Below, piece by piece: positions 8,566 to 30,022 of a stretch of 44,479 nucleotides of DNA. A program made the translations under genes and the position numbers. Under the pieces are notes generated by a model. That model was not told the DNA's origin, did no database searches, and saw only the letters and a program-made list of their open reading frames with translations. Source of the stretch: Geobacteraceae bacterium (GTDB lineage Bacteria > Desulfobacterota > Desulfuromonadia > Geobacterales > Geobacteraceae); assembly GCA_024281055.1 (NCBI GenBank), contig JAMXLF010000003.1, forward strand, positions 1 through 44,479, in the 5' to 3' direction. Positions within the stretch are counted from its first letter, which is position 1, and each line of letters starts with the position of its first letter.

Positions 8566-9702
8566 ATGGGTCGTACTGCGCGTTTTGCCCGAAGTATTCT
8601 CTGTCTTTTCTTCATCGCCGCTGCCGGGTGTGCCCGTCTGCCGGTGACCGGCGTCCTGCCGGACACCGCCCGGGTCACCGACCTGGCCAGTGTTGAAGCA
8701 GGCTCGCCCTTTGCGCTGGACGCCCGGGGAGAAACCGTTGCCTTCGCGAATGGCGGCCTGATGGTGAAGGATGTGACTTCGGGGGAGGAACGTAAGGTCA
8801 GCGCCGATCTGCCGACGGTCCTTGCCTGGTCGCCCGACGGCAAGGAGCTGGCGGCGGCCTTTTCCCAGGGAGATGAAACCGTGCTCCGGCGCTACGACCG
8901 GCAGGGGAACGCTCTGGCGCAGGCACGGGTAAGCGGCCGTGTTAACGGCCTGGCATGGCGGCCTTCCTCCGAAATCCTTGCGTTTGCGGTGAAACAGCGG
9001 GTGTACAGTTTCGGGGCGAACCTGGCGGAAGTCCTCTACCGCTGGGACGGGAAAGGTGAGCCTTCGACGACCGCTCTCCAGGAAACCACCCTTCTGCCCG
9101 CCATCGCGAAACGGTGGCAAGGCGCCATACAACACGTCCTCACATTCGCCGTCTCCCCGCTGGATGATGAAATCGTCTATGCCCGCTTCTATGCACCGCC
9201 GGCCTTCGATCCTTACCTGAAGATCATTCTGCGTCACCTGGAAAGCGGCCGGGAGCGGGAAGTCGCAACTGCCAGCCTGCTCGCTGCCGGAGCGATATTT
9301 TCGCGGGACGGGGAGGAGGTCGTCTGCGGCGACGGGGAGCGCGAGACCCGGTTGCTCGATCCGTGGGGGGACCGGACCGTCGCGACATTTCCGTCTCCCG
9401 GACGGACGCTCGCCCTTTCCCCTGCCGGTCGCTACCTGCTGCTGGACGGCCGCCTTTACCGCGAGGGGCGGGAGATCGCCGCGTTCCCGGCGCAGAGTGT
9501 CGGGGCATTCGCTTCCGGGGGCGGCCGGCTGGCGCTCCGCTACGGCGACCGGCTCTATCTCGTGACGACGCTACCCGAAGAGCCGGCGGCGCCGCGCGAT
9601 CCCGCGGCGGCTGCGCGGCTTCGGCAATTGCACAAGTGGCTGAGCGAAGGGCTGGTTTCCCCCAAGGACTACCGCAAGGCCGTGGAGAAGGCCGCACAAT
9701 GA
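8566..9702 (+). CDS. Lipoprotein with beta-propeller-like repeats and C-terminal SHOCT-like motif
   Basis: The product (378 residues from ATG 8566) has a signal peptide ending in IAAAGC, a lipobox, so it should be lipid-anchored outside the cytoplasmic membrane. Short repeated segments such as VLAWSPDGKELAAAFS, GLAWRPSSEILAFAV, TFAVSPLDDEIVYARF and LALSPAGRYLLLDG resemble blades of a WD40/TolB-like propeller. The last 30 residues (LRQLHKWLSEGLVSPKDY) resemble a SHOCT oligomerisation motif. CGGAGGG at 8551-8557 supports this start over the upstream frame extension. It overlaps the next gene by ATGA, so it is probably coupled to the multiheme cytochrome. The exact function is unknown. Confidence 0.8.
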   Translation: MGRTARFARSILCLFFIAAAGCARLPVTGVLPDTARVTDLASVEAGSPFALDARGETVAFANGGLMVKDVTSGEERKVSADLPTVLAWSPDGKELAAAFSQGDETVLRRYDRQGNALAQARVSGRVNGLAWRPSSEILAFAVKQRVYSFGANLAEVLYRWDGKGEPSTTALQETTLLPAIAKRWQGAIQHVLTFAVSPLDDEIVYARFYAPPAFDPYLKIILRHLESGREREVATASLLAAGAIFSRDGEEVVCGDGERETRLLDPWGDRTVATFPSPGRTLALSPAGRYLLLDGRLYREGREIAAFPAQSVGAFASGGGRLALRYGDRLYLVTTLPEEPAAPRDPAAAARLRQLHKWLSEGLVSPKDYRKAVEKAAQ

Positions 9703-10994
9703 ACAGGTTCCTGCTTCCCGTGATCTCCCTCGTGACCTCGATCGTTGCGCTGGCGTCCGCCGCTCTCGCCGCCGACTGCCTCTCCTGCCACCGCCAGAAG
9801 ACTCCCGCCGCGGTCCGCCAATGGGAGGCAAGCGCCCACGCCAGGGCCGGCATCGGTTGCGCCGCCTGCCACGGGACCGATCACGGCAGGATCGAGAAGG
9901 GGGAGGCCCGGGTCGACCTCAAGGTCTGCGGCGGCTGTCACAAGAAGGCCCTTGCCGATCACCGGGCGAGCCGCCACGGCATGGGGCTCCACTCCGGCTG
10001 GGGGTGCACCCGCAACCTGCCGAACCGCGACCGGCAGGAGTGCCGCTTCTGCCACGAGCAGGGGAGCGAGGTGCCGAAGTCCGAGGTGCAGTGCGCCCGC
10101 TTCCTCAAGCAGAGCAGCGAGATGGCGGAAATCGGCTGCAATTACTGCCACATGGTGGAGAGTTCCTGCGCCGCCTGCCATACCAGCCACACTACCGACC
10201 TGAAGATCGTCCGCGACCCGAACATCTGCGCCAAGTGCCACATGGGGCCGGACCACCCCCAGTGGGAGATGTGGCAGACCTCCCTCCACGGCACCCTCTT
10301 TGCCACCGCCGGCCGGGAAACCGGTCCCGACTGCCAGACGTGCCACATGCCCAAGGGGAGCCACAATGTTTCCGTCGGCATTACCATGTCTTCGGGCGGC
10401 GATCCCTATCCGGCGGACAAGAGAAAGACGCGCCGGGACGAGATGCTGCAGATCTGCGCGAAATGCCATGCCCCCGAGTTCGCCCGCAAAGAGCTTGCCC
10501 GGGGCGACGCCGTGCGTGACCAGAGCCATGCCTTGGTGAAGGAGGCGGAGCTGATCATCGGAGACCTGGCCGACCGCGGCCAGCTCGACCCCATGCCCGA
10601 CCGGCGCCCCCCCCACCCGTTGCGCGGCAATCAGCTGGTGCTGGACAACCAGCTCCTCTACGAGGATACCTCCCATATCGAGCGGCTCCTGTTCAAGATG
10701 AAGAAGTACGACTATGCCCGGACCATCAAGGGGGCCTACCACCAGAACCCCTCCTACACCCACTGGTACGGCAATGCCGAGCTCAAGATGGACCTGGTGG
10801 ACATCCGGACCGAGGCGAGCCGGCTGCGGGACCGGCAGTCGCTTACGGCGGGAAAAGGCTCTTCGGTTCCAGCGGAAACGACGGAGGAAAAACTGCGCGT
10901 CCTGAAAAAGAAGGCGGACCGCGGCGCCATATCGCCAGCAGAGTATGAACGGGAAAAAGGGGTGCTCCTGAAGGAGCTGGCGGGGCACCCATGA
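9699..10994 (+). CDS. HAO-family multiheme c-type cytochrome (nine CXXCH motifs)
   Basis: Exported cytochrome of 431 residues with a signal peptide ending at about residue 24 (ASAALA). I count nine CXXCH heme motifs: CLSCH, CAACH, CGGCH, CRFCH, CNYCH, CAACH, CAKCH, CQTCH and CAKCH. The spacing and the segment CAKCHMGPDHPQWE are typical of the hydroxylamine oxidoreductase/octaheme family, whose members usually have eight hemes. After the heme region come about 120 residues without hemes, ending in a SHOCT-like segment (LRVLKKKADRGAISPAEYEREK). The start at ATG 9699 overlaps the previous stop (ATGA). Its own stop overlaps the start of the acetate-kinase homologue in the same way. The substrate is unknown; it could be a nitrogen- or sulfur-compound reductase or an electron carrier. 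Confidence 0.88.
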   Translation: MNRFLLPVISLVTSIVALASAALAADCLSCHRQKTPAAVRQWEASAHARAGIGCAACHGTDHGRIEKGEARVDLKVCGGCHKKALADHRASRHGMGLHSGWGCTRNLPNRDRQECRFCHEQGSEVPKSEVQCARFLKQSSEMAEIGCNYCHMVESSCAACHTSHTTDLKIVRDPNICAKCHMGPDHPQWEMWQTSLHGTLFATAGRETGPDCQTCHMPKGSHNVSVGITMSSGGDPYPADKRKTRRDEMLQICAKCHAPEFARKELARGDAVRDQSHALVKEAELIIGDLADRGQLDPMPDRRPPHPLRGNQLVLDNQLLYEDTSHIERLLFKMKKYDYARTIKGAYHQNPSYTHWYGNAELKMDLVDIRTEASRLRDRQSLTAGKGSSVPAETTEEKLRVLKKKADRGAISPAEYEREKGVLLKELAGHP

Positions 10995-12253
10995 ACATCC
11001 TCACCCTCAACTGCTGGAGCCATTCGATAAGATACCGTCTCTTTGCCTGGGACCGCCGGGCAATCCTCGCCGAGGGGACACTGGAGCGTGTGGCCATCGG
11101 TGATTCCTTCATCAACCACCGCGTACCGGGGCGGGACACGTTCTGCAGGGACGAGGAATGCGGTGATCACCGGAGCGCCGTTGCCTTCATCCTCGCCACC
11201 CTCACCGACCCGGGTTGCGGTGTGCTCGCCGACGTGGGACAGATCGCCGCCATCGGGCACCGGGTGGTGCACGGCGGCGAGAAGTTCCACCGGTCAGTGA
11301 TGGTCGATGGGCAGGTGCTCGACGCCCTTCGGGATCTCCAGCACCTTGCGCCGCTGCACAGTGCCCCCAACATCGCCGGGATCGAGGCCGCCCGGGGGCT
11401 TCTCCCCGACATCCCCCACGTGGCGATCTTCGATACCGCCTTCCACCAGAGCATGCCCGAGCATGCCTACATCTATCCGCTGCCGTACGAGTGGTACGAA
11501 AACTACGGGATCAGGCGCTACGGCTTCCACGGGCCGTCCCACCTCTACCTGGCGAAGCGGGCCGCCGTGCTTCTCGGCAAGCCGGCCTCGGCGTGCAATT
11601 TGGTGACCATCCACATCGACCGCGGGGTCTCCCTCTGCGCCATCCGCAACGGGGTCTCCATCGACACGAGCATGGGTCTCACCCCTCTGGAAGGGGCGAT
11701 CATGGGGACCCGCTGCGGGGACATCGACCCCGGCATCCTCCCGTTCATGATGCAGGAGACGAACCTGTCGGCGCGGGACATGGAAGGCGTCCTCAACCAG
11801 AAAAGCGGCCTGTGCGGCATAACCGGGCGGTACCTGGACCGCCGGCATACGCTGGAAGGTGCCCTTGACGGGGACGAACGGTGCCGGCTGGCCTTGGAGA
11901 TGGAAGCCTACCGGCTCCGGAAATACATTGGTGCCTACCTGGCCGCAGTGGGGCCGCTGGACGGGGTGGTCTTCACCGCGGGGGTCGGCATGACGGAGTG
12001 GCTCGCCCGGGAGCGGACGCTGGCGGAGCTCGGCTGCTTCGGGATCCGGCTCGACCGGGAGAGGAACCGGAACGCCAGTCAGCAGGGTGCGGAGGCGCTC
12101 ATCACGGCCGACGATTCGCCGGTAAGGGTCTTGGTCATTCCCTCCGACGAGGAGCTCGTCTTTGTCGAGGATGTGGCGGCCATCCTGGCCGGGAAGCACG
12201 ACGATCACCTGAGCTGTGGTTATTTGTTCGGTCGGCCTGATTTCGTCCCCTGA
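10991..12253 (+). CDS. Divergent acetate kinase homologue
   Basis: 420-residue member of the acetate kinase fold. Retained: HRVVHGGE (substrate Arg), IFDTAFHQSMP (catalytic Asp), RRYGFHGPSH (catalytic His), TSMGLTPLEG...MGTRCGDIDPG (second Arg) and SDEELVFVEDV near the C-terminus. Altered: the N-terminal phosphate-loop motif, usually NAGSSSLK, is NCWSHSIR at residues 7-14; the LGNGAS motif is IDRGVS at 209-214; and the GIGENS motif is GVGMTE at 331-336. It overlaps the upstream cytochrome gene by 4 bp (ATGA). It may still be a kinase, may use another phosphate donor, or may be a regulatory relative; the sequence cannot decide. A regular ackA is not in this window. Confidence 0.85.
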   Translation: MNILTLNCWSHSIRYRLFAWDRRAILAEGTLERVAIGDSFINHRVPGRDTFCRDEECGDHRSAVAFILATLTDPGCGVLADVGQIAAIGHRVVHGGEKFHRSVMVDGQVLDALRDLQHLAPLHSAPNIAGIEAARGLLPDIPHVAIFDTAFHQSMPEHAYIYPLPYEWYENYGIRRYGFHGPSHLYLAKRAAVLLGKPASACNLVTIHIDRGVSLCAIRNGVSIDTSMGLTPLEGAIMGTRCGDIDPGILPFMMQETNLSARDMEGVLNQKSGLCGITGRYLDRRHTLEGALDGDERCRLALEMEAYRLRKYIGAYLAAVGPLDGVVFTAGVGMTEWLARERTLAELGCFGIRLDRERNRNASQQGAEALITADDSPVRVLVIPSDEELVFVEDVAAILAGKHDDHLSCGYLFGRPDFVP

Positions 12254-21494: not shown

Positions 21495-22058
21495 ATGACC
21501 GATTACAATATCGGGGCTAAAATCAAGAAACTCCGCATCGCAAAAAAGATGACCCTCCAGGCGGTGGCCAAGGAAACCGGCTTTTCGCCGGCACTCATCT
21601 CGCAGATCGAGAACAATAACGTATCTCCCCCCATTGCCACCCTCTCGAAGATCGCAAAGTTCTTCGACGTGAAAATCGGGATTTTCTTCACCGAGGACGA
21701 AGAGGAGTACCGCTACGAGGTAGTCCGTAAGGGTGAGCGGAAGCAGATCCCGCGGGTTATTTCCCGCTCCGGCACCAGCCAGGGGTATTCCTACGAGTCG
21801 CTCTCCTTTCGCAAGCAGAACAAGAAGATGGAGCCGTTCCTCCTGACCGTGACGGAAAAGGCCGCCGAGGAGAATACCTACAGCCATGACGGCGAGGAAT
21901 TCCTGTTTATCATGAACGGTACGGCGGAACTCCTCCTTGATGAGGAACGGATTCCCCTCGAAGAAGGTGACTGCGTTTATTTCGACTCCTCCCTGAAACA
22001 CCGGCTTCTTTCCCGGGATGGCTCCGAGGTCAAGGTGCTGGCGGTCGTTACGCGGTAG
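21495..22058 (+). CDS. XRE-family transcriptional regulator with cupin sensor domain
   Basis: 187-residue regulator. Residues 1-65 form a helix-turn-helix of the XRE/Cro type (IGAKIKKLRIAKKMTLQAVAKETGFSPALISQIE), and the C-terminal half is a cupin_2 fold (EEFLFIMNGTAELLLDEERIPLEEGDCVYFDSSLKH). Such proteins usually regulate metabolic genes next to them in response to a small ligand bound by the cupin. The start ATG 21495 has TTGGAGA upstream. It has its own promoter and terminator and precedes the acyl-CoA carboxylase operon, making that operon or the lactate operon possible targets. Target and ligand are inferred only. Confidence 0.9.
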   Translation: MTDYNIGAKIKKLRIAKKMTLQAVAKETGFSPALISQIENNNVSPPIATLSKIAKFFDVKIGIFFTEDEEEYRYEVVRKGERKQIPRVISRSGTSQGYSYESLSFRKQNKKMEPFLLTVTEKAAEENTYSHDGEEFLFIMNGTAELLLDEERIPLEEGDCVYFDSSLKHRLLSRDGSEVKVLAVVTR

Positions 22059-22293: not shown

Positions 22294-24018
22294 ATGTCCA
22301 AGAATGCGATTAAACCTTCACTGAAAAATCCCTTTGATCCACCCGAGAAAGTCGAATTTACCATCCCGGGCGAGATCTCCCGAACGACGGGGGGCTACGA
22401 GGAGGCGATGAAGGAAGGCTACGACCTCATTCAACGCCCCATCAAGTCGGTGAAAATCGACCAGATCGAGAAACAGCACTTCAAGAAGCGGATGACCGTC
22501 TGGGAACGGATTCGCGTCCTTTCCGACAAGGCTCCCAACGTCCTCTACCAGAACTGGGGGAAGAACCTCGACGGTGCCTCGCTGGTGACCGCGATCCTCA
22601 ACATCGGCGGCCGGGACGTGGCAGTGTACGGCCATGACTTCACCGTGCGGGCCGGTTCCATCGATGCCACCAACGGCAGCAAGCTGGCCCGGCTCTTCAA
22701 CATGGCCGGCGAAAAGGGGATCCCCCTCATCGGCATGAACGATTCGGCGGGCGCCTTCGTGCCGGCCGGGGTCGGTGGCCTCGACGGCTACGCCGAGGCG
22801 TTCACCGCCCTGCGCAAGATCAGCGGCGTGGTCCCCTCCATCATGTGCATGTTCGGCTTCAATGCGGGGGGCGGTTCCTACCTGCCGCGCCAGGGAAGCT
22901 TCGTCATTCAGCCCAACGAGACCTTTTTCGGCCTCACCGGACCCGGCGTCGTCAAGTCGGTGCTGGGCGAAGACATCACCCCCGAAGAGCTGGGTGGCCC
23001 CAAGGTGCACGGCAGATCCGGCGTGGCCGACCTTACCGTTGCAGACGAAGTGGCGGCCCTGCGGACGGCGATGCGGCTCCTCTCCTACATCCCGGACAAC
23101 AACAGCGTTGCCCCGCCGTTCCAGGAGACGAGCGATCCCCTCGACCGGAAGACCTGGGAAATCAACACCCTGCTGAAGAAGGCCTTCAACTCGCCGACCG
23201 GCTTCAACACGCCGTTCGACGTGTCCATCGTCATCCAGCAGATATGCGATCACGGCGACTACTTCGAGCTGCAGCCGGAACGGGCCAGGGAGGTGGTTAC
23301 CGCCTTCGGACGCCTCGGGGGCAACGTCGTCGGTTTCTGCGCCAACAACTCGGCGGTCGCCTCCGGCCAGATCGACTGCGATTCCGCGGTGAAGATCGCC
23401 CGGTTTGTCCGCTTCTGCAATATCTACAACATCCCCATCATCTTCATGGAAGACACCACCGGGTTCCTCCCCGGCCGCGAGCAGGAATCGCGGGGCATCG
23501 TGCAGGCAGGACGCTCCATGCTCGATTCCATCGTCGACGTCCGCACGCCCCGGATCCTGCTGATCCTGCGCAACGCCTTCGGCGGCGCCTATGCGTCATA
23601 CAACAACTATCCTACCGGCGCCGACCTGGTGCTGGCGCTCCCCACCACGCGCCTGGCGGTCATGGGGCCGGCCGGCAAAGAGTTCGTCTACAAAGACGAG
23701 CTGCGCAAGATTCGGGGGGCCGCTGCCGAAATGGCCAAGAAAGGGGCCGAGGAGCGGATCAAGTGCGGCATGGAAGCGGCTGCAGCCAAGCAGGACGCGG
23801 AGAAGGAAGCGGCCGAGTGGCTGAAGGGGCAGGAAGCACTCCTCAACCAGCGCTACGAAAAGGAGCTGATGAACCCGAAGGAGGGTTTGGCCCTGGGCTC
23901 CATCTCCTCGATCGTCATGCCGACCGACCTGCGCCAGGTGCTTGGTGAAAACATGAACTTCCTGCTGCGTCACTACAAACCGGGGCCGATGGGCGGACCC
24001 CAGCGCGAGTTCCACTAA
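22294..24018 (+). CDS. Acyl-CoA carboxylase carboxyltransferase subunit
   Basis: Biotin-dependent carboxyltransferase (crotonase-fold pair of domains) that moves CO2 from carboxybiotin to an acyl-CoA. The roughly 574-residue product shows [61 protein letters not shown] and, in the second half, [15 protein letters not shown] and [16 protein letters not shown] 22294 is chosen because GGAAGG at 22279-22284 is correctly spaced from it; an ATG at 22285 is too close, and the upstream frame is unsupported. With the next gene (biotin carboxylase/carrier) it makes an acyl-CoA carboxylase. Because mutase and epimerase genes follow, propionyl-CoA is the likely substrate, with methylmalonyl-CoA as product. 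Confidence 0.9.
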
Positions 24019-24190: not shown

Positions 24191-27070
24191 ATGACCGACC
24201 TGTACATGAACAACCCCATGATTCACCGGGACCGCCGCCTGGGTAACTCACCGTCCGAATGGGTCCGCTCATTCGCCTGTGTGGATCTGAAACCGCTCAT
24301 CGTCTGTCGTGGCCCGATCCGCAAGGAAGCCATGGATGTGTTCGAAGAGATGGGGATGACCCACTACGGCATTCTTCTCTCCGAGAAGGACTCGATTGTC
24401 TACGCCAATGCCCTGGCGCCCGAGCTGCGCCAGCTGACCGACTCGAACCGCGTCCACCGGGTGCCCGACTATACCGGCGCCAGCAAGGAGGAGCGGGTCG
24501 AGCGGATCGGACAGATCATCCAGATCGCCCTCGACAACGGCTATGATTCGGTGTTCGCCGGCTACGGCTTCATGGCTGAGGATGAGGAGTTCGTGGCGGA
24601 GATCGAGAAGGCGGGCTTGGCGTTCATCGGCCCCAACTCCCGCACCCAGGCCGATGCGGGCAAGAAGGACGAGGCCAAGCGGACCGCCCTGCAGGTGGGG
24701 GTGAGCGTCACCCCGGGCATCAACAATGTCACGGCCCGGACCCTGGTGAAGAAGCACCCGACCCGCGACCAGCTACTGGCTCTGGTCAAGGCCGAAGGGA
24801 TCGAGCTGGACGCCCAGGTGGCGAAGGACACCAAGCTCTCCCTTGAGGACTTGGCCGACCAGATCCTCTATGCCAGCTACGAAAAGGGGATCGACCTCTA
24901 CACCATCGAAGAGCTCTGCGCCCAGGTAAAGGTGGAAGTGGAGCAGATGTTCAAGGAGTTCCCGGGGAGCCGGATCCGCCTGAAGGCCATCGGCGGCGGT
25001 GGCGGGAAGGGGCAGCGCATCCTCGGCGCATCGCTCCTGACGGCCAAGAACCCCACCGACACGCAGATCAGGGAAGCCGCCGCCGAAGCCCCGACCCTGG
25101 TGCGGGAGGTGTTGAACGAGGTCAAGGCCAACGGTGTCGGCGACAACAAGAACGTCCTGATCGAGTTGAACATCGAGCAGACCCGCCACAATGAGATCCA
25201 GCTCGTGGGGAACGGCGAGTGGTGCGTGTCGCTGGGCGGCCGCGACTGCTCCCTGCAGATGCACGAGCAGAAGCTGCTGGAAGTTTCCGTCACCCAGGAA
25301 GGGCTGGCGCGCGCCATCGAAACGGCGAAGAAGGCGGGACGCAAGGCCGAGGTGAAGGCCCTGGAGAGTGACTTGAAGGTGCTGAAACGGATGGAAGAGG
25401 ATGCCGCAAAGTTCGGTGTGGCCGTCGGACTCGACTCCGCCTCCACCTTCGAGTGCATCGTCGACCGGGACCGCTACTATTTCATGGAGGTGAACACCCG
25501 GATCCAGGTGGAGCACCGGGTTTCCGAACTCTGCTACTCGCTCAAGTTCACCAATCCCAAGGACAAGAACGACTTCTTCATCGTCGAGTCGCTGGTGGAG
25601 GCCATGGCCCTGCTGGCCCGACACAAGAAACGGCTCCCCAAACCGGAGCGCATTCCCCGTTTCGGGGCCGGCGCCGAGGCCCGTCTCAACGCTACCGATG
25701 CATCGCTGTCGCCCCATGCCGGCGGCATGATCCGCTACTGGTCAAAGCCGATCGAAGGCGAAATCCGTGACGACCAGGGTATCTGCCTGGTGAACCCGGA
25801 TACCGGCATGTTCATGCGCTACAAGGTTGCCGGCGCTTACGATTCCAACATCGCCCTGCTCCTGACCAGGGGTGAGGACCGGCTCGCCAGCTATGAGCAC
25901 CTCGCCAGGGTGCTGGGCACGACCAACCTGCGCGGCAGCGATCTGGCCACCAACCTGGAATTCCACTACGGTCTCGTCAACTGGTTCCTCGGGCAGAACG
26001 TCATGGCTAAGCCGACCACTCGCTTCGTCGTACCGTACCTCACCCTGGTCGGCCTGTTGAAGGAAGAGGCGAGCAAGATCGACACGGTCGCGGCCTTCCT
26101 GGCGCTGAAGAAGCACTACGCCAAGAAGATGGCCGATGAGTTCCCGGATGACCCGGCCATCGGCAAGTCCATGTCGCAGATCCTCGACCGAAAGGGGACG
26201 CTGGTTACCCGCCCGATGGACAAGCTGCTGGAAGACCCCCATCTCCTCTCGGGCTGGCTCTCCGTCAACCGGAAGAATTTCACCATGGAGAAGGGGAAGG
26301 TGGTGTGGCATGACAACCCCTTCGTCATCCTGGCGGATCTCTACGAGTACCTGAACATGCAGTACGATCCGGCCGCCCCGGCTGCCGAGGTCATCTGGAG
26401 CCATGACGACGAACTGCTCCAGAAAGGGCTCCGTTTCTACACCACCCTGTCCGGGAAGTTCCAGCTGGGGATGCACGAATTCGACAAGCTTTCGGCGATC
26501 ATCACCAAGGAAAAACCGCAAGGGGGCTTTTCGCCCGAGGAGTGGGCGGAGATCCAGTCCGCCCATATGGGCTTCGAGGCCGGCCTGGAACTGCTCGGCA
26601 TGCTGTTCCTCGTTGCCGAGAACGTCAAGTTCTGGGATTTCAAGGTGGAAGACGACTTGGAAGTGACGATTCCCGATTATCTCCACGATGCGGAACTGCA
26701 GGCCCGGATGAAGAAGGTGCTGGTCCCGCCGCCGGCCACCAAGGCCGACGAGATCGTCGCCATCTGCGGCGGCATGTACTACGGCCAGGAGGCGCCCGGC
26801 ATGCCGGCGTTCATCTCCGAAGGGATGCACTTCGAGAAGGGGCAGGCCCTCTACATCATCGAGGTCATGAAGATGTTCAACACGGTCCGGGCCACCTTTT
26901 CCGGCACCATCGACAGGATCATCATGCAGGGAGCGGACGGCAGCATCGTCCAGAAGGGGCAGCCGCTGTTCAAGGTCACACCGGACGAGAAATTCGTGGA
27001 AGTGGACCCGGAAGAAATAAAGCGGCAGAAGCGGGAAAAGACCCTCGCCTATCTGAAGGCGATCATCTAG
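24191..27070 (+). CDS. Fused biotin carboxylase / biotin carboxyl carrier protein
   Basis: 959-residue subunit that carboxylates biotin using ATP and bicarbonate and carries it on its own C-terminal domain. The ATP-grasp glycine loop IGGGGGKGQR lies at about 265-275 and the catalytic EVNTRIQVEH at about 433-442. The C-terminal BCCP domain starts near residue 860 and carries the biotin lysine at K894 in EVMKMF, where Val replaces the usual Ala of EAMKM. Between BC and BCCP is a long, mostly helical linker (about residues 560-850), larger than a typical BC-BCCP link. The start ATG 24191 has GGAG at 24177-24180. It works with the carboxyltransferase encoded just upstream. Confidence 0.9.
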   Translation: MTDLYMNNPMIHRDRRLGNSPSEWVRSFACVDLKPLIVCRGPIRKEAMDVFEEMGMTHYGILLSEKDSIVYANALAPELRQLTDSNRVHRVPDYTGASKEERVERIGQIIQIALDNGYDSVFAGYGFMAEDEEFVAEIEKAGLAFIGPNSRTQADAGKKDEAKRTALQVGVSVTPGINNVTARTLVKKHPTRDQLLALVKAEGIELDAQVAKDTKLSLEDLADQILYASYEKGIDLYTIEELCAQVKVEVEQMFKEFPGSRIRLKAIGGGGGKGQRILGASLLTAKNPTDTQIREAAAEAPTLVREVLNEVKANGVGDNKNVLIELNIEQTRHNEIQLVGNGEWCVSLGGRDCSLQMHEQKLLEVSVTQEGLARAIETAKKAGRKAEVKALESDLKVLKRMEEDAAKFGVAVGLDSASTFECIVDRDRYYFMEVNTRIQVEHRVSELCYSLKFTNPKDKNDFFIVESLVEAMALLARHKKRLPKPERIPRFGAGAEARLNATDASLSPHAGGMIRYWSKPIEGEIRDDQGICLVNPDTGMFMRYKVAGAYDSNIALLLTRGEDRLASYEHLARVLGTTNLRGSDLATNLEFHYGLVNWFLGQNVMAKPTTRFVVPYLTLVGLLKEEASKIDTVAAFLALKKHYAKKMADEFPDDPAIGKSMSQILDRKGTLVTRPMDKLLEDPHLLSGWLSVNRKNFTMEKGKVVWHDNPFVILADLYEYLNMQYDPAAPAAEVIWSHDDELLQKGLRFYTTLSGKFQLGMHEFDKLSAIITKEKPQGGFSPEEWAEIQSAHMGFEAGLELLGMLFLVAENVKFWDFKVEDDLEVTIPDYLHDAELQARMKKVLVPPPATKADEIVAICGGMYYGQEAPGMPAFISEGMHFEKGQALYIIEVMKMFNTVRATFSGTIDRIIMQGADGSIVQKGQPLFKVTPDEKFVEVDPEEIKRQKREKTLAYLKAII

Positions 27071-27126
27071 GAAACTGTTAGTGTCACATCCGGAGTTTCA
27101 GGATGGACACCATCTAGGAGGATATC

Positions 27127-27762
27127 GTGAGAAAAGGGAAATTTATCGTAGTCGAGGGGATCAACGGCTCGGGGCAGTCGGTCAAAGCAGCCATTGTCGG
27201 GTTGCATAAGGCGCTGGTCGAGCAGCGCTACGATGTGGTCGAGTGCGCCAATCCTGATTCAGGGCGGGTCCAGGAGCTGGGGGGCGCTACGATGCTCAAC
27301 TGGCCGTTTGGCAAAACACCCCGGGCAGATTTCCTGTTCGAGGGGGCGGTGCGGTGCGAAATCTTCAAGAATGTCGTTGAGCCGGCGCTGCAGCAGGACA
27401 AGATCGTGCTCTGCAAGCAGTCGAGCATCTCCTCCCTGGCCAATGTCTGGATGAGCGGTTACACGAAACATTTTGACGTGCTGCGGCACCTGGACAAGAT
27501 CTCCCGCGGCTTCCTTTTCGAAGACGAGATATATCCCGACCTGACCATCTTCATGGATGTCCCCGCGAACGAGGCCTGTGAACGGATCGAGGAAGTGCTG
27601 CAGATTCACCACGAGGGGGGGCTCGAGTTTTATGAACAGATGCGGGAATTCTATCTCAAGGAAATCCCCCGCTGGCACGGCGTCAGAGTCGATGCACCGG
27701 CCAGCCGACACCCGGACGAGATCAATGCCGAAGTGCTGGCTCTGGTCAAGCAGATTCTCTGA
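27127..27762 (+). CDS. Thymidylate-kinase-like protein with degenerate catalytic motifs
   Basis: 211-residue protein with the thymidylate kinase fold by overall pattern (FIVVEGINGSG, FLFEGAVRCEIFKNVVEPAL, YPDLTIFMDVPANEACERIEE), but key motifs are changed. The Walker A GXXGXGKT reads GINGSGQSV, with Gln17 in place of the essential Lys. The REPGG motif is ANPDSG near residue 41, and the DR(Y/H) motif is KQSS at about 97-100. Ordinary TMP kinase activity is therefore unlikely. The start is GTG 27127 with TAGGAGG at 27115-27121. It lies between the biotin carboxylase and the methylmalonyl-CoA mutase, so a role linked to that pathway (regulator or chaperone-like) is suspected, not shown. Confidence 0.8.
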   Translation: MRKGKFIVVEGINGSGQSVKAAIVGLHKALVEQRYDVVECANPDSGRVQELGGATMLNWPFGKTPRADFLFEGAVRCEIFKNVVEPALQQDKIVLCKQSSISSLANVWMSGYTKHFDVLRHLDKISRGFLFEDEIYPDLTIFMDVPANEACERIEEVLQIHHEGGLEFYEQMREFYLKEIPRWHGVRVDAPASRHPDEINAEVLALVKQIL

Positions 27763-27881: not shown

Positions 27882-29537
<1,656 letters not shown>

Positions 29538-29617: not shown

Positions 29618-30022
29618 ATGCTCAAAAAGATCAACCACATCGGGATCGCCGTTACCTCTCTTGAGGAGACGCTCCCCTTTTACCGTGACAATCTCGGCAT
29701 GGCCGTGCAAGGCATCGAAGAGGTCGCGGACCAGAAGGTCAAGGTTGCCATGCTCCAGGTAGGGGAGTCGAAGATCGAACTCCTCGAGCCCACCTCCCCG
29801 GAGAGCCCGGTGGCCAGGTTCCTGGAGAAAAACGGCCCCGGCATTCACCACCTGGCCTACGAGGTGGATGATATCGCGGCGGCCCTTGCCAAACTGGAGA
29901 ATGAAGGGACGCGGCTGATCGATCGGACCCCGCGCAAAGGTGCCCACGGGACGCTGATCGCCTTTGTCCATCCCAAGAGCAGCCAAGGCGCTCTGACCGA
30001 GCTTTGCCAGACGTCCCATTAA
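29618..30022 (+). CDS. mce: Methylmalonyl-CoA epimerase
   Basis: Vicinal-oxygen-chelate enzyme that interconverts (R)- and (S)-methylmalonyl-CoA. The 134-residue product has likely metal ligands His7 (KINHIGIAV), His77 or His78 (PGIHHLAYEV) and Glu128 (ALTELC), and the family phrase LPFYRDNLGM. ATG 29618 has GGGGG upstream at the edge of hairpin F. It is the last gene before a strong terminator, closing the propionyl-CoA/methylmalonyl-CoA operon. Confidence 0.95.
   Translation: MLKKINHIGIAVTSLEETLPFYRDNLGMAVQGIEEVADQKVKVAMLQVGESKIELLEPTSPESPVARFLEKNGPGIHHLAYEVDDIAAALAKLENEGTRLIDRTPRKGAHGTLIAFVHPKSSQGALTELCQTSH

Follow-up and report, generated by a model that had tools for sequence, protein, structure and literature searches.

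Thymidylate-kinase-like proteins that have lost the catalytic residues of thymidylate kinase (TMK), hereafter TMKL, are encoded directly beside a biotin carboxylase in 26 genomes and are kept under purifying selection. Our preferred reading, tentative and to be given a probability of roughly 0.45, is that TMKL, without catalysing a reaction, serves one lineage of biotin-dependent acyl-CoA (propionyl-CoA) carboxylases as an accessory or regulatory protein. The window, i.e., the whole stretch of 44,479 nucleotides analysed from a Geobacteraceae bacterium, holds the gene together with those of the carboxylase, of methylmalonyl-CoA mutase, and of the epimerase (Table 1). A reading of this stretch from its letters alone (the sequence-only reading) had described the open reading frame as undamaged and endowed with a strong Shine-Dalgarno sequence, and the GTG start, the stop-free frame, and the AGGAGG bear this out.

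Table 1. Coordinates of the TMKL gene, its sequence elements, and the neighbouring genes in the window.
Feature	Positions	Strand	Remarks
XRE-cupin type regulator	21495..22058	+	5' of CT
CT, acyl-CoA carboxyltransferase subunit	22297..24018	+	PF01039
BC-BCCP, biotin carboxylase-BCCP fusion	24191..27070	+	959 aa; ends 56 bases 5' of TMKL
Shine-Dalgarno AGGAGG of TMKL	27116..27121	+	Read from sequence; five bases 5' of GTG
TMKL, TMK-like protein without catalytic residues	27127..27762	+	211 aa; GTG start; 0 internal stops
Degenerate P-loop GINGSGQSV of TMKL	27157..27183	+	Residues 11-19
ANPDSG of TMKL, replacing REPGG	27247..27264	+	Residues 41-46
KQSS of TMKL, replacing DR(F/Y/H)	27415..27426	+	Residues 97-100
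Methylmalonyl-CoA mutase catalytic subunit, without B12 domain	27882..29537	+	551 aa
Methylmalonyl-CoA epimerase	29618..30022	+	TIGR03081 above cut-off

Catalytic residues, fold, and selection

We aligned the relatives of TMKL with 12 canonical TMKs of related genomes and compared them column by column. The comparison confirms the losses claimed by the sequence-only reading, i.e., of the P-loop Lys, of REPGG (now ANPDSG), and of the DR motif (now KQSS). In the window protein, the P-loop Lys (canonical K15) is replaced by Q17, the Walker Ser/Thr (T17) by V19, the REPG Arg (R37) by A41, and D94-R95 by K97-Q98. The LID columns R156, E157, E158, R159, F160, and E161 have no counterpart, which amounts to a deletion of at least six conserved LID residues. 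All 27 copies of the clade to which the window protein belongs (clade A) lack the Walker A Lys and the LID counterpart and carry KQ instead of DR, and the position of the Walker Thr is occupied by Val (25) or Ala (2). The position of the Lys is taken by Gln in 23 copies, Pro in 2, Ala in 1, and Leu in 1. Hence, the proposed loss of this Lys stands throughout the clade, but Gln17 is not a specially retained residue. On the evidence of these alignments, the losses are conserved features rather than chance. Other residues are kept: E10, G11, G14, G16, P43, D44, R47, R76, K97, and D144 are invariant over 39 aligned proteins, and the column table shows E10, G11, G14, G16, R47, R76, G111, and T140 in 41 of 41 relatives and D144 in 40. 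The alignment of R47 to a canonical Arg is unsure because of a nearby deletion. R76 lies at what we take to be the position of the base-reading Arg of TMKs.

The TMK fold is complete in the structure predicted, with good confidence, by AlphaFold2 from a 39-member alignment (pLDDT 87.6, pTM 0.85). The best matches of this model are the TMKs of Aquifex and Thermus (VIA Z 21.3, rmsd 2.2-2.4 over 179-183 residues), so the fold-level pattern was rightly described as intact. In the Pfam scan, the window protein scores above the cut-off of the Thymidylate_kin family (PF02223, 37.3 bits for a cut-off of 27), which is narrowly missed by two other clade A copies in the genome scan (25.6 in G044 and 24.3 in G035). 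Pfam-based annotation would label such genes thymidylate kinase. Against the dTMP kinase equivalog TIGR00041, which has a cut-off of 83.25 bits, the window protein scores 61.4, and the canonical tmk of the window genome (G000:C35:63-647) reaches 181.9 bits. All 39 relatives match this model at E 0.001 or better, their standing relative to the cut-off being known for the window protein alone. The Pfam scan, run up to E 1, gave one further and weak match, to the deoxynucleoside kinase (dNK) domain PF01712 (E 0.19), and none to the MeaB G-protein domain PF03308, in agreement with the earlier remark that MeaB-type GTPases are a different family. TMKL is therefore like bacterial TMKs in its whole fold, its EGxxGxG loop, its R76, and its descent, but unlike them it lacks the P-loop Lys, the Walker Ser/Thr, the REPG Arg, the DR motif, and the LID arginines, and it falls below the equivalog cut-off.

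Thirteen clade A pairs that we chose give dN/dS values from 0.021 to 0.120 for TMKL and from 0.017 to 0.149 for the mutase (Nei-Gojobori; several dS values exceed 1, hence the estimates are rough). None of the 27 clade A copies has an internal stop. The low ratios rule out a pseudogene, and they agree with the claim that the protein is kept as a pseudo-enzyme free of signs of decay. That TMKL is a decaying duplicate of tmk, a view for which the lost motifs are the only argument, is thus extremely improbable given these ratios and the intact frames. Pseudoenzymes are recognised by a loss of catalytic residues common to orthologues together with purifying selection, and TMKL, as judged from sequence comparison, displays both.

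Distribution of TMKL and its sister clade

Among 277 genomes of the class, 38 match TMKL at E 1e-20 or better. Alignment assigns 26 of them, from four families, to clade A (27 copies including that of the window, since G018 has two), and Geobacter argillaceus (L035) is a named species carrying TMKL. The 12 others belong to clade B, whose proteins are 31-38% identical to the window TMKL. With a clade B protein as query, we identified 13 clade B genomes among the 141 of the order, none of which is a clade A genome. Two more (G079 and G080), from the search with TMKL, lie in the class but outside the order. We inferred a tree from 27 clade A rows, 14 clade B rows (row L212 was left out), 12 canonical TMKs, and 2 further TMK-like proteins. 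Clade A, clade B, and the canonical TMKs form one group each, and the branch uniting A and B has a support of 99/96. Two even samples of 395 genomes of the phylum returned 3 matches each (E 1e-18; E 1e-15), all from the window's order and including the window genome. Matches were also found in 16 plasmid records, all below 60% identity (a label of tmk or dTMP kinase is attached to seven of the ten listed, and the remaining three carry no feature). Viral contigs gave 17 matches at 22-30%, and genome contigs nine weak ones. We judge all of these to be ordinary TMKs or chance.

Clade B resembles its sister group in the D(S/T/C)GRA and LCK signatures and in the loss of DR. It differs in having a basic residue at the P-loop position in all 14 aligned proteins (9 Lys, 5 Arg) and in its genomic context: of the 15 clade B loci, seven of them under 10 kb long, not one contains the operon genes. 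Among the matches listed, no neighbour is common to all of these loci; shared neighbours occur within close sets (L090/L091, L092/L093, and L097/L098/L211) and are otherwise scattered. Since clade B lies outside the operon, the role of the common ancestor need not have concerned the carboxylase.

The residues kept in both clades could suggest that the family is an altered enzyme or a tight nucleotide binder, in which K97 replaces the P-loop Lys and the substrate is perhaps nucleotide-like or CoA-like. The invariance of G11, G14, G16, and K97 in 39 of 39 proteins, the Lys or Arg of the clade B P-loop, the complete fold, and the TIGR00041 matches of all relatives are consistent with this. However, nothing is left of the Walker Ser/Thr, the REPG Arg, the DR Arg, or the LID segment, and the P-loop position of clade A drifts to Pro, Ala, and Leu, so that we regard such an activity as improbable.

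The sequence-only reading had also raised the matter of a second, normal tmk elsewhere in the genome. A high-scoring tmk (E 1e-44 or better) is present in 25 of the 26 clade A genomes, the exception being G194, an 81% complete draft. Its motifs were read in the window genome and 11 relatives, and the others were judged by score. The window genome further encodes two tandem TMK-like genes (G000:C41:1455-2764, L100); the motifs are GLDGSGKST and DRY in the first and GADGSGRST and DRY in the second. Pairs of TMK-like genes with similar scores occur in 7 of the 25 other clade A genomes (G039, G042, G045, G049, G053, G055, and G194).

Partner and possible role of TMKL

Each of the 27 clade A loci has BC-BCCP immediately 5' and a mutase gene immediately 3' of TMKL on the same strand, with one neighbour cut by the contig end in six of them (L066, L068, L069, L073, L081, and L099). 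The expectation that orthologues always sit beside carboxylase and mutase genes was thus upheld across 26 genomes and four families. In the 26 loci measured, the gap on the BC side is 9-224 bases long (9-26 in eight of them) and that on the mutase side 30-253. Where the available sequence extends far enough, BC is preceded by CT and by the XRE-cupin gene, except in L081, which has no XRE match. The carboxylase itself is present in 122 of the 141 genomes of the order and TMKL in 26, leaving 96 of the 122 without it. TMKL is not essential, and the notion that the pathway needs it fails.

We inferred a quick tree of BC from 64 rows, i.e., 24 with TMKL and 40 chosen ones without it (drawn from 38 of the 96 genomes that lack TMKL), omitting G018 and G039 because BC is broken in both. 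The presence of TMKL requires 6 changes on this tree, against 19.6 when shuffled (0 of 500); the starred branches alone force 3. Hence, the presence of TMKL tracks the lineage of the carboxylase. The same BC clade includes 17 TMKL-minus rows, and G001 has CT and BC of the TMKL lineage without TMKL.

The cluster of G040 (L070, 4909-17694) separates the candidate partners. Its CT and BC are 89-92% and 80-84% identical to those of six members of the TMKL lineage (97% and 90% to those of G268), against 84-86% and 74-76% within its own genus. The other genes resemble those of the genus (xre 86-97%, oxidoreductase 86-90%, mutase 90-93%, MeaB 83-84%), save the epimerase, which fits neither side clearly (72-78% to the genus, 70-74% to others). 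The mutase next to TMKL in this genome is a different, full-length one, with MeaB in the same cluster. In G268, TMKL lies on a short contig beside a mutase fragment of the same kind, apparently the same arrangement. From the sequences, the G040 cluster looks like a recombinant, in which a CT-BC-TMKL block of another lineage has entered a cluster typical of the genus. Given the way its identities divide between CT and BC on one side and mutase and MeaB on the other, CT-BC-TMKL acts like a unit that has been attached to the resident mutase. The genetic link of TMKL to the proposed complex consists of this block and of the BC-BCCP gene adjoining it in 27 of 27 loci.

Evolutionary distances were compared in 16 loci and in two smaller subsets. 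Those of TMKL correlate with those of CT at 0.71, 0.75, and 0.64, with those of BC at 0.75, 0.76, and 0.91, and with those of the mutase at 0.12, 0.58, and 0.52, the lowest value being depressed by the foreign mutase of G040 in the first set. The XRE and oxidoreductase genes also correlate with TMKL (0.74-0.82), and in two of the three sets their values equal or slightly exceed that of BC. The distances therefore associate TMKL with the genes of the upstream half, and it is its adjacency and the G040 case that single out BC as the partner.

These results bear on the framing of TMKL as a helper of the mutase, which the sequence-only reading had suggested. As a helper or chaperone, TMKL would be a partner of or a substitute for MeaB, and the mutase gene is indeed 3' of it in 27 of 27 loci. 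Yet MeaB is present in 25 of the 26 clade A genomes (all but G268, a draft of 79% completeness), and on this ground we reject that TMKL replaces it. In addition, G040, where TMKL came with a foreign CT-BC, keeps it beside a different mutase accompanied by a MeaB of its own, and G268 likewise beside the mutase fragment. The distances of TMKL also follow those of BC more closely than those of the mutase. We thus consider a mutase helper quite improbable. MeaB/ArgK (PF03308), the GTPase chaperone of the mutase, is like TMKL a P-loop protein sometimes encoded beside the mutase, but it is of a different family, and the two co-occur in genomes and, in G040, in one cluster. In the window genome, the B12-binding small subunit is separate from the mutase and adjoins MeaB (G000:C99, L142:9034-9438).

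TMKL might instead be a passenger, a protein of general function unrelated to the carboxylase that resides in the operon for its expression or through the history of recombination. Recombination spanning CT and BC could bring it along in this way. The absence of the operon genes from all clade B loci and of TMKL from most carboxylase genomes would fit, and so would the mutual avoidance of the two clades, as if B could replace A: no genome of the order has both (2.4 expected from 26 A and 13 B among 141, P 0.062), and, within the TMKL-type BC clade, B is found in 7 of 17 rows lacking A and in 0 of 24 rows with A (Fisher 0.0009, a post hoc value that ignores kinship). Against this stand the invariable linkage across four families and the G040 cassette, and we deem a passenger somewhat unlikely.

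Purifying selection, the constant operon position, and the tmk elsewhere make a binding or regulatory role the sensible reading. This part of the earlier proposal holds, but the mutase is not supported as its target. In the scenario that we favour, a paralogue of TMK would have lost phosphoryl transfer and then become an accessory or regulatory protein encoded with the CT and BC-BCCP subunits. It would keep a ligand pocket, formed by the invariant GxxGxG loop and R76, and this pocket might bind, but not turn over, a nucleotide or some other ligand that bears a phosphate, thereby stabilising or tuning the carboxylase. The genetics point to the carboxylase as the body that TMKL may contact, and the neighbouring genes to propionyl-CoA as its probable substrate. 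To our knowledge, pseudo-enzymes derived from nucleotide kinases are rarely documented in bacteria, and TMKL would be one with a clear genetic neighbour. No paper on such a protein was found in the literature searched, subscription papers and preprints being outside its scope.

A precedent is NDUFA10, an accessory subunit of complex I with a dNK fold and bound dGTP, for which kinase activity is reported as not detected (PMC9226000). Like TMKL, it is a nucleoside-kinase-like P-loop fold kept with a metabolic complex. It is a proven subunit that has key dNK residues (PMC9226000), whereas TMKL lacks the catalytic residues and has a partner suggested by genetics. NDUFA10 moreover has a dNK domain (PF01712), and TMKL a TMK fold.

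A more specific and unlikely variant is that TMKL is a nucleotide-sensing regulatory subunit, through which a nucleotide signal would set the entry of propionate carbon. We found no description of nucleotide-signal control of a carboxylase of this kind in the literature searched. If true, it would add a layer of control to propionate and methylmalonyl metabolism in metal-reducing bacteria.

The operon slot with and without TMKL

The BC-BCCP of the window matches 18 NCBIfam models, in every case with a score far short of the cut-off (best 174.8 against 965), and roughly its residues 190-250 and 650-840 have no domain assigned. In L067 (G039, 9071-11949), BC-BCCP is split over two overlapping frames, through a frameshift, a sequencing error, or a split of the gene.

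A tblastn search with 39 TMKL proteins against 20 regions between BC and mutase of TMKL-minus genomes revealed no remnant of TMKL at E 0.01. The blastn search of such regions gave one match of 29 bases (E 0.008, in L123), taken for chance. Some TMKL-minus genomes have, 3' of BC, a zinc-ribbon-like open reading frame of about 60-70 residues (CPVC...CPxCG), whose LysW-like and CPXCG matches are weak and below cut-off. It occurs in 18 of 31 TMKL-minus regions (a non-random pick; L108-L117, L120, L122-L125, L127, L134, and L135), always on the strand opposite to the operon, and in none of the 26 TMKL-plus loci other than that of the window. A near full-length relative is present in one of the 26 TMKL-plus genomes (G018), and shorter or weaker matches in 19 others. 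TMKL and this open reading frame seem to alternate at this slot of the operon. Finally, in two relatives that we looked at, an extra protein, presumably of the GxxExxY type, is encoded between mutase and epimerase (L076:10542-10940 and L082:11572-11946).
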